Shown here: positions 2,157-42,726 of the stretch, in pieces
Layout: each line of letters starts with the position of its first letter
Numbering within the stretch: position 1 is the first letter of the stretch
Source of the DNA: Pigmentiphaga sp. NML080357
Lineage (GTDB): Bacteria > Pseudomonadota > Gammaproteobacteria > Burkholderiales > Burkholderiaceae_B
Assembly (NCBI RefSeq): GCF_002188465.1
Contig: NZ_NINW01000049.1
Location: 124,001-188,000 of the forward strand
Direction of reading: 5' to 3'
Length of the DNA: 64,000 nt
Position numbers and translations under genes: made by a program
Notes under the pieces: model-generated
What the model was told of the DNA's origin: nothing
The model's database searches: none
What the model saw: only the letters and a program-made list of their open reading frames with translations

Positions 2157-2237
2157 GACTCGGGATGCGGTGGATCCAGCTCTGCCGGTCCACCCGCGTC
2201 GCCCCCCTGGGGGGGCGCCCATCAACGCGTAGCGGCG
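2157..2237 (-). repeat. Dispersed palindromic repeat, copy 1
   Basis: This is one of seven copies of an about 80-bp element. Read on the minus strand it begins TACGCGTTGA, continues with a C/G-rich palindrome centred on CCCCCAGGGGGG, then a hairpin of the type GGTGGACCGGC-loop-GCTGGATCCACC. The TGA in its left end is the stop codon of the 2-hydroxyacid dehydrogenase gene, so the element overlaps that gene's last codons. Confidence 0.85.
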
Positions 2238-3226
2238 GGCACTCCGTTCACTATATTTCGGGGCGTGCCGGCCACCCACGCCACGATGTTCTCGAAAGCG
2301 ACCTTGAAATAGAGGTTGTAGCTGTCGGCTTCCACGAAACCGATGTGGGGCGTGCAGATGACGTTCTCCATCCGCAGCAGCGGATGGCCTTGCAGAATGG
2401 GTTCGGTCTCGAACACGTCGACCGCGGCCATGCCGGGGCGGCCGCGATTGAGCGCCAGCACCAGCGCATCGGACTCGATCAGTTCCGCCCGCGAGGTATT
2501 CACCAGGAGGGCCTCGGGCCCCATGCGCTGCAAGTCGGCCAGCGTAACGATGCCGCGGGTCTCGTCGGTCAGTTTCAGCAGCAGGCACAGCACGTCGCTG
2601 GATTCGAACAGCGCTTCCTTGCTGGCCGCGGTATCCAGGCCGTCGGCCCGGGCGCGTTCCAGGGTGGACTCGCGTCCCCAGACCGTGACCTTCATGCCGA
2701 ATGCCTTGCCGTAGTTCGCCACCATCTTGGCGATCCTGCCGTAGCCGAACAGCCCCAGGTTGCGGCCGTGCAAGCTGCGCCCCAGCCCGAAATTGGCTGG
2801 CATGGACGAAGCCTTCATGCCGGATTGCTGCCATGCACCATGCTTGAGATTGGCTGCATATTGAGGAATTCGCCTCATCGCGGCCATAATGAGCGCCCAT
2901 GTCAGTTCAGCCGGCGCGATGGGTGAGCCGACTCCCTGGGCGACGGCGATCCCGCGCTCGGTGCAGGCGGCCACATCGATGTGCGAGCCGACGCGCCCCG
3001 TCTGGGAGATCAGCTTCAATTGCGGGAGCTTGTCCAGCAGGGCGCGGGTAATGGACGTGCGCTCGCGGATCAATACCAAAGTCTCCGTATCGCGCAGCCG
3101 GACGGCCAACTGGCCTAATCCCTTGACCGTATTGTTATAAACCTTAACTTCGTGGCCTTCTAACAAGCTGAAGCAGTCGAGCTTGCGTACCGCGTCTTGG
3201 TAGTCGTCAAGAATCGTAATGCGCAT
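2222..3226 (-). CDS. D-2-hydroxyacid dehydrogenase family, NAD(P)-dependent
   Basis: This 334-residue protein has the two-lobed D-isomer-specific 2-hydroxyacid dehydrogenase layout. The nucleotide-binding fold contains GLFGYGRIAKMVANYGKAFGM (residues about 134-156), a GxGxxG-type loop. Downstream motifs LVNTSRAELI and ICTPHIGFVE supply the conserved Arg and the catalytic His region. Enzymes of this family reduce 2-oxoacids or oxidise D-2-hydroxyacids (phosphoglycerate, glyoxylate, lactate types); the exact substrate is unknown. The C-terminal codons (ending ATR-stop) lie inside dispersed repeat copy 1, so the tail may have been replaced by the repeat. It is divergent from pckG. Confidence 0.85.
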   Translation of the reverse strand: MRITILDDYQDAVRKLDCFSLLEGHEVKVYNNTVKGLGQLAVRLRDTETLVLIRERTSITRALLDKLPQLKLISQTGRVGSHIDVAACTERGIAVAQGVGSPIAPAELTWALIMAAMRRIPQYAANLKHGAWQQSGMKASSMPANFGLGRSLHGRNLGLFGYGRIAKMVANYGKAFGMKVTVWGRESTLERARADGLDTAASKEALFESSDVLCLLLKLTDETRGIVTLADLQRMGPEALLVNTSRAELIESDALVLALNRGRPGMAAVDVFETEPILQGHPLLRMENVICTPHIGFVEADSYNLYFKVAFENIVAWVAGTPRNIVNGVPAATR

Positions 3227-3399
3227 GGGCTTTCCTTCGATCAGACGCGATGGTAGTCCAATTGGTCTTGGGGGCGTTAGCAGCCAACGGTAACCGACCC
3301 TTTCCTCCTGGAAACTTTTGGCCGGAGGGGGTGGGGTATATTAAGTTAAGTCGATCCGTGCCAATCGATGCCCGGATCTTTATTTTTTACATAATCAGG

Positions 3400-3413
3400 C
3401 GCTTTCGAAAGCG
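3400..3413. promoter_or_regulatory. 14-bp perfect palindrome directly upstream of the pckG ribosome-binding site
   Basis: CGCTTTCGAAAGCG is a perfect palindrome ending three bases before the GAGGAG ribosome-binding site of pckG (3416-3421). It could be a repressor operator or a short hairpin affecting translation. No regulator is identified. Confidence 0.4.
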
Positions 3414-3431
3414 TCGAGGAGAATGTCATCC

Positions 3432-40263: not shown

Positions 40264-40309
40264 AGGCGGGGCAGCAACGGCTTAGAGGGAAACAGAGAAG
40301 GGAAGATAG

Positions 40310-41188
40310 ATGCCCGGAATCAAGGAAATCCGAACCAAGATCAAGAGCGTGCAAAACACGCGCAAGATCACCAAGGCGATGGAGATGGTCGCCGCGTCCA
40401 AGATGCGCAAGGCGCAGGATCGGATGCGCGCTGCCCGCCCGTATGCCGACAAGGTGCGCAATATCGCCGCGCACATGGCGCAAGCCAATCCCGACTACGA
40501 GCACGCCTACCTGGCCAAGCGGGAAGACATCAAGGCTGCCGGTCTGATCGTGGTCACCACCGACAAGGGCCTGTGCGGCGCGCTGAACACCAACGTTCTG
40601 CGCGCGGTGCTCAATCGCCTGAAGGAATCCGAAGCGAAGGGCATCAAGGTCCAGACCACGGCCATCGGCAACAAGGGCCTGGGCTTCCTGACCCGTCTGG
40701 ACGCCAACGTCGTGTCCCAGGTGGTGCAGCTGGGCGATGCGCCCAACCTCGAGCGCCTGATCGGCGCGATCAAGGTGCAGCTCGACGCCTATGCCGAGGG
40801 CAAGGTCGACGTGGTGTACCTGGCGTACAACCGCTTCATCAACACGATGAAGCAGGAGCCCGTGATCGAGCAGCTGCTGCCGCTGTCGGCCGAGCGCTTC
40901 GCGCAGACCGAGGAAGAAAAGAAGGCCTACTCGTGGGACTACATCTACGAACCGGATGCGAAGTCGGTCGTCGATGAACTCCTGCTGCGCTACGTGGAAG
41001 CGCTGGTGTACCAAGCCGTTGCCGAAAACATGGCGTCCGAGCAGTCCGCCCGGATGGTGGCCATGAAGGCTGCATCGGACAACGCCAAGAAGGTGATCGG
41101 CGACCTGCAACTGGTCTACAACAAGACCCGCCAGGCTGCCATCACCAAGGAAATTTCGGAAATCGTGGGTGGTGCGGCGGCGGTGTAA
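40310..41188 (+). CDS. atpG: F-type ATP synthase subunit gamma
   Basis: This 292-residue rotor shaft has the N-terminal coiled coil [28 protein letters not shown] and the C-terminal [15 protein letters not shown]-type helix ([21 protein letters not shown]). Both are characteristic. It sits between atpA and atpD. Confidence 0.97.
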
Positions 41189-41230
41189 GCCGGCGCGACG
41201 CCTTAAAGAATCAGGAATCGAGGAATCGAT

Positions 41231-42649
41231 ATGAGCAACGGAACCATCGTTCAGTGCATCGGTGCCGTGGTGGACATCCAGTTCCCCCGCGACAGCATGC
41301 CCAAGATCTACGAGGCCCTCACGCTGGCCGACGAGAGCTCGGCCTTCGCCGAGAAGGGCTTGACCTTCGAAGTGCAGCAGCAGCTGGGTGACGGCGTCGT
41401 CCGCACCATCGCCATGGGCTCGTCCGACGGCCTGCGCCGCGGCATGGCCGTGGCCGCCAGCGGCGCGCCCATCTCGGTGCCCGTGGGCACCGGCACGCTG
41501 GGCCGCATCATGGACGTGCTGGGCCGTCCCATCGACGAAGCCGGCCCGATCAAGTCGGAAGAGCGTCGCGCCATCCACCAGGACGCGCCCAAGTTCGACG
41601 AGCTGTCGCCCTCCGTAGAGCTGCTCGAGACCGGCATCAAGGTTATCGACCTGGTGTGCCCGTTCGCCAAGGGCGGCAAGGTCGGCCTGTTCGGCGGCGC
41701 CGGCGTGGGCAAGACCGTGAACATGCTCGAGCTCATCAACAACATCGCCAAGCAGCACAGCGGCCTGTCGGTGTTCGCGGGCGTGGGCGAGCGGACTCGC
41801 GAAGGCAACGACTTCTACCACGAAATGGCGGAAGCGGGCGTCATTAACCTGGACAAGATCGAAGAGTCCAAGGTGGCGATGGTGTTCGGCCAGATGAACG
41901 AGCCTCCGGGCAACCGCCTGCGCGTGGCGCTGTCGGGCCTGACGATGGCCGAGAAGTTCCGCGACGAAGGCCGCGACATCCTGTTCTTCGTCGACAACAT
42001 CTACCGCTACACGCTGGCCGGCACCGAAGTGTCCGCGCTGCTGGGCCGCATGCCCTCCGCCGTGGGCTACCAGCCGACGCTGGCCGAGGAAATGGGCAAG
42101 CTGCAGGAGCGCATCACCTCGACCAAGACCGGCTCGATCACGTCGATCCAGGCCGTGTACGTGCCCGCGGATGACTTGACCGACCCGTCGCCCGCCACGA
42201 CCTTCCTGCACCTGGACTCGACCGTCGTGCTGTCGCGTGACATCGCCGCGCTGGGTATCTACCCCGCCGTCGATCCGCTCGACTCCACCAGCCGCCAGCT
42301 CGATCCGCAGGTCGTGGGCGAAGAGCACTACGCGGTGGCCCGCGGCGTGCAGCAGACGCTGCAGCGCTACAAGGAACTGCGCGACATCATCGCGATCCTG
42401 GGCATGGACGAACTGTCGCCGGAAGACAAGCAGGCCGTCAGCCGCGCCCGCAAGATCCAGCGCTTCCTGTCGCAGCCCTTCCACGTGGCCGAAGTGTTCA
42501 CGGGTTCGCCCGGCAAGTACGTGCCGCTGAAGGAAACCATCCGCGGCTTCAAGATGATCGTCGAAGGCGAGTGCGACGCGCTGCCCGAGCAGGCCTTCTA
42601 CATGGTCGGCACGATCGACGAAGCGTTCGAGAAAGCAAAAAAACTGTAA
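41231..42649 (+). CDS. atpD: F-type ATP synthase subunit beta
   Basis: This 472-residue catalytic subunit has P-loop GGAGVGKT (about residues 156-163), the catalytic-glutamate motif [14 protein letters not shown], and DELSPEDK as the DELSEED-type lever. It ends normally at AKKL. Dispersed repeat copy 7 follows the stop. Confidence 0.98.
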
Positions 42650-42726
42650 CCCCCCTACGCGCTTACGCGCGCCCCCCAGGGGGCGGCACTGGCGGACCGG
42701 CAAAGCCGGATCCGCTGTGCCCTGGG
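42650..42726 (+). repeat. Dispersed palindromic repeat, copy 7
   Basis: It begins at the base after the atpD stop: CCCCCCTACGCGCTTACGCG, GCCCCCCAGGGGGC, then GGCACTGGCGGACCGGC-AAA-GCCGGATCCGCTGTGCC and CCTGGGTTC. It lies between atpD and atpC. Confidence 0.9.

Follow-up and report, generated by a model that had tools for sequence, protein, structure and literature searches.

The stretch analysed here, referred to as the window, comprises 64,000 nucleotides of the genome of Pigmentiphaga sp. NML080357 (contig NZ_NINW01000049.1, positions 124,001 to 188,000) and carries seven copies of a palindromic repeat of about 77 bp, three of them behind the ATP synthase genes atpB, atpA and atpD. Comparison with further copies in the same genome and in related genomes makes it fairly probable that these copies are parts of a family of foldback elements that resembles REPINs, the inverted doublets of repetitive extragenic palindromes (REPs), and miniature inverted-repeat transposable elements (MITEs). 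Such elements would be moved in trans by a putative enzyme, with the stop-side half kept as an RNA hairpin at the 3' end. The copies and the genes beside them are listed below, with the outer stem of the long hairpin and the score of the covariance model R1 given for each copy; genes were called with our own codon-usage script and identified with Pfam.

2159-2237, minus strand: copy 1, outer stem GACGC/GCATC with one mismatch, 78.8 bits
2222-3226, minus strand: gene at copy 1, D-2-hydroxyacid dehydrogenase-like, called end at the TGA of the first loop
17985-18061, minus strand: copy 2, outer stem GATGC/GCATC, 97.0 bits
18046-18993, minus strand: gene at copy 2, TctC-type, called frame enters the copy and ends at the first-loop TGA
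33345-34250: gene upstream of copy 3, TctC-type, stop 4 nt before the copy
34255-34331, plus strand: copy 3, outer stem GATGC/GCATC, 97.7 bits
35214-35290, minus strand: copy 4, outer stem GGCAC/GTGCC, 96.9 bits, with a class II aldolase gene and an ATP synthase I-chain gene as neighbours, the only window copy that does not abut a stop
36080-36946: atpB, stop 6 nt before copy 5
36953-37026, plus strand: copy 5, outer stem GGCGC/GCGCC, 66.3 bits, the most diverged of the seven
38646-40184: atpA, stop 3 nt before copy 6 by the model bounds
40188-40263, plus strand: copy 6, outer stem GGCAC/GTGCC, 90.3 bits, C-run from 40186
41231-42649: atpD, stop directly adjoining copy 7
42650-42726, plus strand: copy 7, outer stem GGCAC/GTGCC, 99.2 bits

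All seven copies reported in the first-pass annotation are present in the window, and the starts given there lie 0-6 bases too early. R1 was built from these seven copies, which therefore match it by construction (66 to 99 bits); beyond them, a scan of the window to E = 1 gave a single match of 15 bits. A strict core motif is present in six of the seven, and none of the 4227 Rfam families matches the window at gathering score. The annotation had also placed most copies directly behind stop codons. This holds for four of the seven, which begin 0-6 nt after a stop, and fails for the copy at 35214; at 2159 and 17985 the called gene stops at a TGA inside the first hairpin loop. The RNA around copy 7 (42640-42735) folds at -55.3 kcal/mol with a z-score of -3.44.

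The module of about 77 bp starts with a C-run, which is followed by three hairpins in succession: (i) hairpin A, GCGC-TNAC-GCGC, (ii) hairpin B, GCCCC-CCAG-GGGGC, and (iii) hairpin C, in which a variable outer stem encloses the core GGA-CCGGC-NNN-GCCGG, a bulged A and TCC. Most modules end with CCTGG. The stems had been described correctly before except for the bulged A of the long hairpin (GGA-CCGGC-NNN-GCCGG-A-TCC), which went unmentioned; alignment-based folding predicted a near-identical structure unaided. The proposed covariation of the stems is borne out on the seven rows, which exceed shuffled alignments in cells paired (96.0% versus 91.6%, 0/500 shuffles as high) and in cells changed on both sides (13 versus 5.1, 0/500). 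Both-sided change was found in 6 of 25 pairs, all in the long hairpin, versus 3.8 in shuffles (16/500 as high), the covariation score was reached by 0/500 shuffles, and sliding the structure by 1-3 columns lowered pairing to 35-47%. A contrary point is the number of further pair types, 12, which is below the 15.2 of the shuffles.

Larger alignments extend this pattern. In 47 distinct rows, representing 51 matches in 464 kb of the same genome, 16 of 25 pairs changed on both sides versus 7.4 in shuffles (0/500), and covarying pairs occur in all three hairpins. In other genera (31 matches, 28 of them distinct, from eight genomes) the corresponding number was 13 of 25, none of them in hairpin B, and further pair types were not above shuffles (442/500 as high). 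Both alignments were fitted to R1; because of this fitting and because the copies group into subfamilies, the cells of the 47-row alignment are not independent events. Of the first-pass alternatives, a structure that is selected or copied, signs of both are seen. The orthologous site of the copy at 17985 is filled in five related genomes with different outer stems: the window reads GATGCAGAT/ATCGCATC, whereas four relatives have GAAACC/GGTTTC and the fifth has GGCGGAGG/CCTCCGCC. For the GAAACC subfamily, the own genome yields 2 exact core matches and six relatives 12-29 each. Since the covariation largely separates amplified subfamilies (GATGC, GGCAC, GGCGC and GAAACC outer stems), copying explains much of it. 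To judge from the aligned sequences, the module structure is retained, through copying as much as through stepwise compensation.

A genome scan, proposed with the original description as a check, revealed many further copies beyond the window. All of the best 150 of 5410 candidates matched R1, giving at least 150 copies in the own genome, and the core motif with at most one mismatch occurs 256 times versus 2 for a reversed control. For an estimate of abundance we used the window and 20 stretches at round coordinates, 464 kb in all; the stretches were picked after the first hit list was known, and 5 of the 20 have no match. This sample contains 51 matches at E up to 0.1, of which 43 exceed 50 bits, 36 of these outside the window. 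The resulting density of about 90 copies per Mb suggests, by extrapolation from 464 kb, roughly 500 copies per genome. Among the 30 best copies, eight have one identical 77-mer and six have another. In the surveys, the best 12 to 150 matches were scored per genome, with stricter filters above 40 genomes, and all counts and absences are lower bounds.

Copies that lie close together form a composite unit. Among the best 150 listed copies there are 13 close pairs (starts at most 330 bp apart), all in plus-then-minus order with the tails facing and the C-runs outside, and in 10 of the 13 the spacing is 166-170 bp. The 464-kb sample agrees: 7/7 close pairs are tail-to-tail and 4/7 have this spacing. 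The spacer is palindromic in the examples read, TCTAGTACCG...CGGTACTAGA or GTACTACCAGGCTGA...TCAGCCTGGTAGTAC, and a half-spacer, TCTAGTACC.., comes after the window copy at 34255. The one composite that was folded, L050:2544-2786, forms a single near-perfect hairpin of 243 nt at -118.7 kcal/mol (DNA parameters; z -17.1), and this near-perfect inverted repeat provides the composite examined with terminal inverted repeats, a feature of MITEs. Close pairs account for 14 of the 43 sample copies, the other 29 being lone. A partner remnant scoring above all 40 shuffles was found beside six lone copies; four of these remnants are weak, and the two strong ones are whole partner modules overlooked by R1.

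The evidence of movement consists of comparisons with related genomes, designated here by G-numbers, and not of witnessed transposition. Behind atpD, the window genome, G002-G006 and G008 have the element; G009 has a decayed form, G015 a different version, and G001, G007 and G010 lack it. Behind atpA, among the relatives compared, G005 alone shares it with the window genome, and G009 has a remnant. Behind atpB it is present in the window genome, G002, G004, G005 and G006 and absent from G003 and G008. A convergent gene pair has its called stops 4 nt apart in G002 and G008; in G006 the whole composite lies between them, and G003 and G004 carry the composite of G006 with one half deleted. Comparison of orthologous sites also revealed modules nested within one another (chimeras).

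Other observations at these sites concern individual gaps. In the gap 34404-35375, G004 and G008 have only a small palindrome that resembles two joined outer ends; joined ends as a frequent excision scar were rejected, as only 3 exact sites occur in eight genomes. The gene at 34404-35165 was considered as cargo between two copies and rejected, being a class II aldolase by Pfam that is present in five relatives. The 142-nt atpD-atpC gap (window 42650-42791) is identical in the window genome and G003 (L076) while neighbouring gaps differ, the atpA-atpG gap being filled in one genome and empty in the other, which suggests recent recombination.

The copies are placed with a clear polarity relative to genes. 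The C-run side faces the stop codon in 34 of the 43 sample copies. Of the 42 copies in the placement test, 22 lie 0-10 nt behind a stop, or 27 together with five further copies where the called gene ends at a TGA within the first loop; random placement in present-day gaps (5000 trials) gave a mean of 3.8 and a maximum of 10. The tail side is within 0-10 nt of a stop in only 1/43 copies, and 1/43 lies inside a called gene. Where lone copies occupy gaps between genes of the same direction, the C-run points towards the stop in 18 cases and towards the start in 3. The best matches in other genomes (nine loci of the same genus and 40 of other genera) have a stop within -16 to 12 nt in 34 of 49 loci, at least 8 of the 49 having been misoriented by the script and counted as misses.

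A target rule based on TAG stops was rejected, TAG being found in 6/22 cases of the unbiased own sample versus 25.8% of all called genes. Beside the best-scoring copies TAG is commoner, at 9/20 own loci and 18/32 loci of other genomes. In genera g186 and g16 (L222-L224, L252, L259), copies can have outer arms TGAA(A/G)...TTTCA beyond the module, the unit then measuring 103-112 bp; at L252 the called stop TGA is supplied by the left outer arm.

REP-type repeats are generally tied to RAYT enzymes (REP-associated tyrosine transposases), and the first-pass annotation had likened the repeat to REP/RAYT-type elements. We searched with the Pfam profile Y1_Tnp (PF01797), which contains RAYTs and in a control matches in 5/14 known genomes. 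The RAYT link was not borne out: the own genome has no Y1_Tnp match, and 14 further host-family carrier genomes yielded only one, which covers 31 model positions and is ended by a contig end of G009. Several genomes are drafts, and the G009 piece may be the end of a whole gene. Of the eight Comamonadaceae-like genomes that have distant copies, six contain Y1 genes (two in G354, a single one in the other five), where matches to the element within 1.5 kb are at chance level only (best 11.9 bits, E 0.67). No conserved GTAG/CGTC tag was found at one palindrome end in the copies studied here; GTAG is confined to the complement of CCTAC in some of the copies, and G015 and most g16 copies read CCCCCGAAGCGC at this position. 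A standing RAYT system was thus rejected on the lack of Y1_Tnp in the own genome, the sole piece in G009 and the Y1 loci without the element.

A phage collection gave no match to the element. Plasmid matches were found in three Variovorax records (75-79%) and one Methylibium record (85-86%), and a match on a Cupriavidus plasmid falls in the flank, outside the element. On the Methylibium plasmid NC_008826.1 (L200, 2602-3621), an annotated transposase coding sequence with HTH_Tnp_1 at its start runs through a repeat copy. The annotated frame looks like a broken transposase gene fused to the element and not like an autonomous partner; we take the transposase to be of the IS66 type.

R1 matches were found in 14 of the 61 nearest genomes, own included, in 58 of 250 sampled host-family genomes (7 of 43 genera), and, across the order, in 14 of 399 genomes; ten of these carriers are from outside the host family, and eight of the ten fall in a single other family, with weaker matches. 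A contig scan compared the best 80 of 589 loci, whose identity of at most 78% places none of them in the own genus. Among these 80, R1 at E up to 1 gave four matches, in Variovorax (41.1 bits), Pseudacidovorax (32.1), Polaromonas (30.0) and Noviherbaspirillum (21.4), and none in two named Bordetella loci, two metagenome-assembled contigs titled Bordetella parapertussis and two Achromobacter loci. The named matches in Variovorax, Pseudacidovorax and Polaromonas suggest that the other carrier family is Comamonadaceae-like. The host family takes in relatives of Achromobacter, Bordetella and Alcaligenes: G013 shares 92-93% identity with two Achromobacter and G011 shares 88% with Alcaligenes, and four g16 genomes are 89-90% identical to Bordetella pseudohinzii, with two g4 genomes likewise at 89%. 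Over the atp region, the window genome shares 81-82% identity with two named species of Bordetella and with two of Achromobacter, so that the host is probably of a different genus. Nine other members of the own genus carry the family, with at least 37 matches in eight of them and 3 in G009. For G010, of the same genus and assembled as one contig of 6.2 Mb, no R1 match was reported among the scored candidates, which makes it a natural empty comparator.

If the copies indeed derive from a mobile foldback family, its mobile unit is presumably a near-perfect inverted repeat of about 243 bp, composed of a module, a palindromic spacer and an inverted module with the C-runs outward. Units have spread within the genome, as is shown indirectly by identical copies at different places and by sites that are filled or empty between relatives, and a putative trans-acting enzyme may recognise the hairpins of the folded strand. 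Insertions would survive where they fall into the short stretch from a stop codon to the start signals of the next gene, and a unit could afterwards lose one half by internal deletion, an event observed at one site. Where genes lie in tandem, it is mostly the module beside the stop that is found; this module lies in sense orientation, and its transcript would form a hairpin cluster. The module could persist because this cluster forms at the 3' end of the mRNA, where, by analogy with E. coli REPs, the cluster probably shields the upstream mRNA from decay, dampens translation or downstream expression, or does both. Sequence comparison supports within-genome copying, composite units, half-loss at one site, stop-side polarity and kept secondary structure. 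With copies behind atpB, atpA and atpD, the element seems to tolerate read-through inside an operon and may also tune it. An abundant and apparently recently active family without a RAYT would, if this is true, point to a second mobilisation route or to a host activity that spreads palindromes, and would do so in a bacterial family that is tractable. The placement at stop codons, including those of the ATP synthase operon, makes the choice between mRNA-end tuning and tolerated junk testable by alleles with and without the element.

Several observations weigh against this interpretation. Neither a mobilising enzyme nor an autonomous copy was found in the genomes examined, and at the polymorphic sites compared, few of which are clean, inspection by eye revealed no target-site duplication. 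No partner remnant above the 40 shuffles accompanies 23 of the 29 lone copies and four of the six remnants are weak, hence lone copies need not be halves of units. Ancestral gaps are short at some sites, e.g., 4 nt in the convergent pair of G002 and G008, and thus part of the nearness to stops is expected from tolerance alone; the atpD-atpC gap measures 31-38 nt in G001, G007 and G010, and the random placement model used present-day gaps. One insertion, in G006, is in a promoter-side gap. Should the atp operon be transcribed as one, the copies in it could not act as full terminators, and of the 4,072 REPs predicted for E. coli no more than 446 lie within 15 nt of a stop, according to excerpts of PMC12306157.

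The alternatives differ in what they take to have spread or held the repeats. A tentative possibility is that the approximately 500 modules per genome were reached without RAYT/Y1, another single-strand- or hairpin-processing activity of the host or of a transposon copying the 243-bp unit and placing it at translation-stop or terminator positions, with one half kept as a 3'-end RNA element. The loss in this lineage of the RAYT gene of a classical REP/RAYT system, which would make the copies relics of past activity, appears unlikely. The REP-like anatomy, the inverted pairs, the Y1_Tnp genes in six of eight Comamonadaceae-like carriers of distant relatives and the G009 match at a contig end, possibly the end of a whole gene, would all be expected from it; however, the Comamonadaceae-like Y1 loci lack the element above chance within 1.5 kb, the conserved 5' GTAG/CGTC tag is missing, and no other Y1 match exists in 15 host-family carriers, yet identical copies and site polymorphism suggest recent activity. 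Mutational processes, namely template switching in quasi-palindromes or conversion between copies, might have produced the covariation without structural selection. We regard this as possible but doubtful: G-C to C-G flips of the stem (10/47 rows at one pair), whole outer stems swapped at one orthologous site and the amplified GAAACC subfamily (12-29 core matches in each of six relatives versus 2 own) are of the kind it predicts, whereas neutral drift should erode the structure and the stop-side orientation that are seen across genera.

Two further explanations assign the repeats a role in gene expression. Selection and not mobility could hold the hairpin cluster behind particular genes, the copies being host-encoded regulatory elements of 3' untranslated regions. 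The abutment to stops with sense orientation (18:3), the like placement in other species and genera (34/49 loci) and the presence between atpD and atpC in the window genome, G002-G006 and G008 accord with such a role, but the other atp gaps vary between close relatives, identical copies occur at unrelated places, and the composites and nested insertions look like mobile DNA, so that we consider it quite improbable. Least credible are bidirectional intrinsic terminators multiplied by recombination. In the gap behind the gene at 33345-34250, the copy at 34255 stands in the place of short T-tailed hairpins of five relatives (by eye), and composites lie between convergent genes; against this, copies occur inside the atp operon, the number of terminator-like sites in 33.2-43.3 kb does not exceed that of shuffles (7 versus 7.0), and only one of them overlaps a copy, at the tail of that at 42650. 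A function as a full intrinsic terminator was rejected on the same shuffle-level count of hairpin plus T-run sites. An ATP-synthase stoichiometry device was also rejected: copies follow atpB, which encodes a single-copy subunit of ATP synthase, as well as atpA and atpD here, but their presence differs between relatives.

The first-pass annotation did not recognise a named family, which is probably wrong: the host group, place, structure and tandem arrays agree with those of Bor (2006), Bor-1 (2008) and BRE (2011). The element is probably the group published as Bor/Bor-1 and BRE, matched by description and not by sequence. In the excerpted text of Petrillo 2006 (PMC1590033), Bor denotes hairpins of 26-30 bp in Bordetellae that are likened to E. 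coli REPs, and in that of Cozzuto 2008 (PMC2267715), Bor-1 has 117 bp and 196 members in B. bronchiseptica and 93 bp and 128 members in B. pertussis. The likeness consists in stem-loop repeats that are intergenic or near coding regions and, for Bor-1, in a predicted common structure. The 93-117 bp of Bor-1 compare with 77 bp for the module (103-112 bp with the outer arms at five g186 and g16 loci) and 243 bp for the unit, and its 128-196 members with hundreds here, copy numbers being those of different hosts. A composite unit, stop-codon polarity, further host genera and a search for a transposase do not figure in the Bor and Bor-1 descriptions, as excerpted.

REP-like character, suggested at the outset, is supported by the hundreds of hairpin copies, most of them extragenic, by inverted pairs with a nearly constant spacing and by proximity to stops. 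REPINs and REP/RAYT systems are, in excerpts of PMC3116915 and PMC2817692, short extragenic palindromes of high copy number with inverted doublets, and the REP tag is GTAG or CGTC at one palindrome end (PMC3733652 in part). The family studied here differs in that no RAYT was found, no tag is conserved, each module has three hairpins and the unit is longer. For REPs of E. coli that lie no more than 15 nt from a stop codon, ribosome stalling is reported (PMC12306157, in excerpt), and this is the nearest functional precedent. In the open-access literature we found for these repeats no tail-to-tail foldback unit, stop-codon polarity with numbers, three-hairpin covariation across genera, several hundred copies per genome or lack of a Y1 enzyme; no paper on the family in Achromobacter surfaced, the host genus not having been searched for.

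Also close is the description of BRE, the Beta-proteobacterial repeat element (Hot 2011, PMC3110155), given in the portions available as a GC-rich repeat of 75-91 bp, usually intergenic and sometimes overlapping the ends of open reading frames. It forms tandem arrays with no or few nucleotides between units, is transcribed at bprJ, and occurs in Alcaligenaceae, Comamonadaceae and, once, in Azoarcus. Unit size, tandem arrays (in some genomes only) and host families (names inferred from named relatives) agree with the element. The same portions report 1-29 copies per genome and describe no inverted composite or secondary structure. Tandem arrays in G015, with periods of 86-87 bp, look like BRE. 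In the own genome, five tandem units of about 102 bp, each with the hairpin C core, occupy L039 954-1429 (G000:C9:40954-41429); this array sits directly behind a full copy and represents a local tandem amplification of the family.

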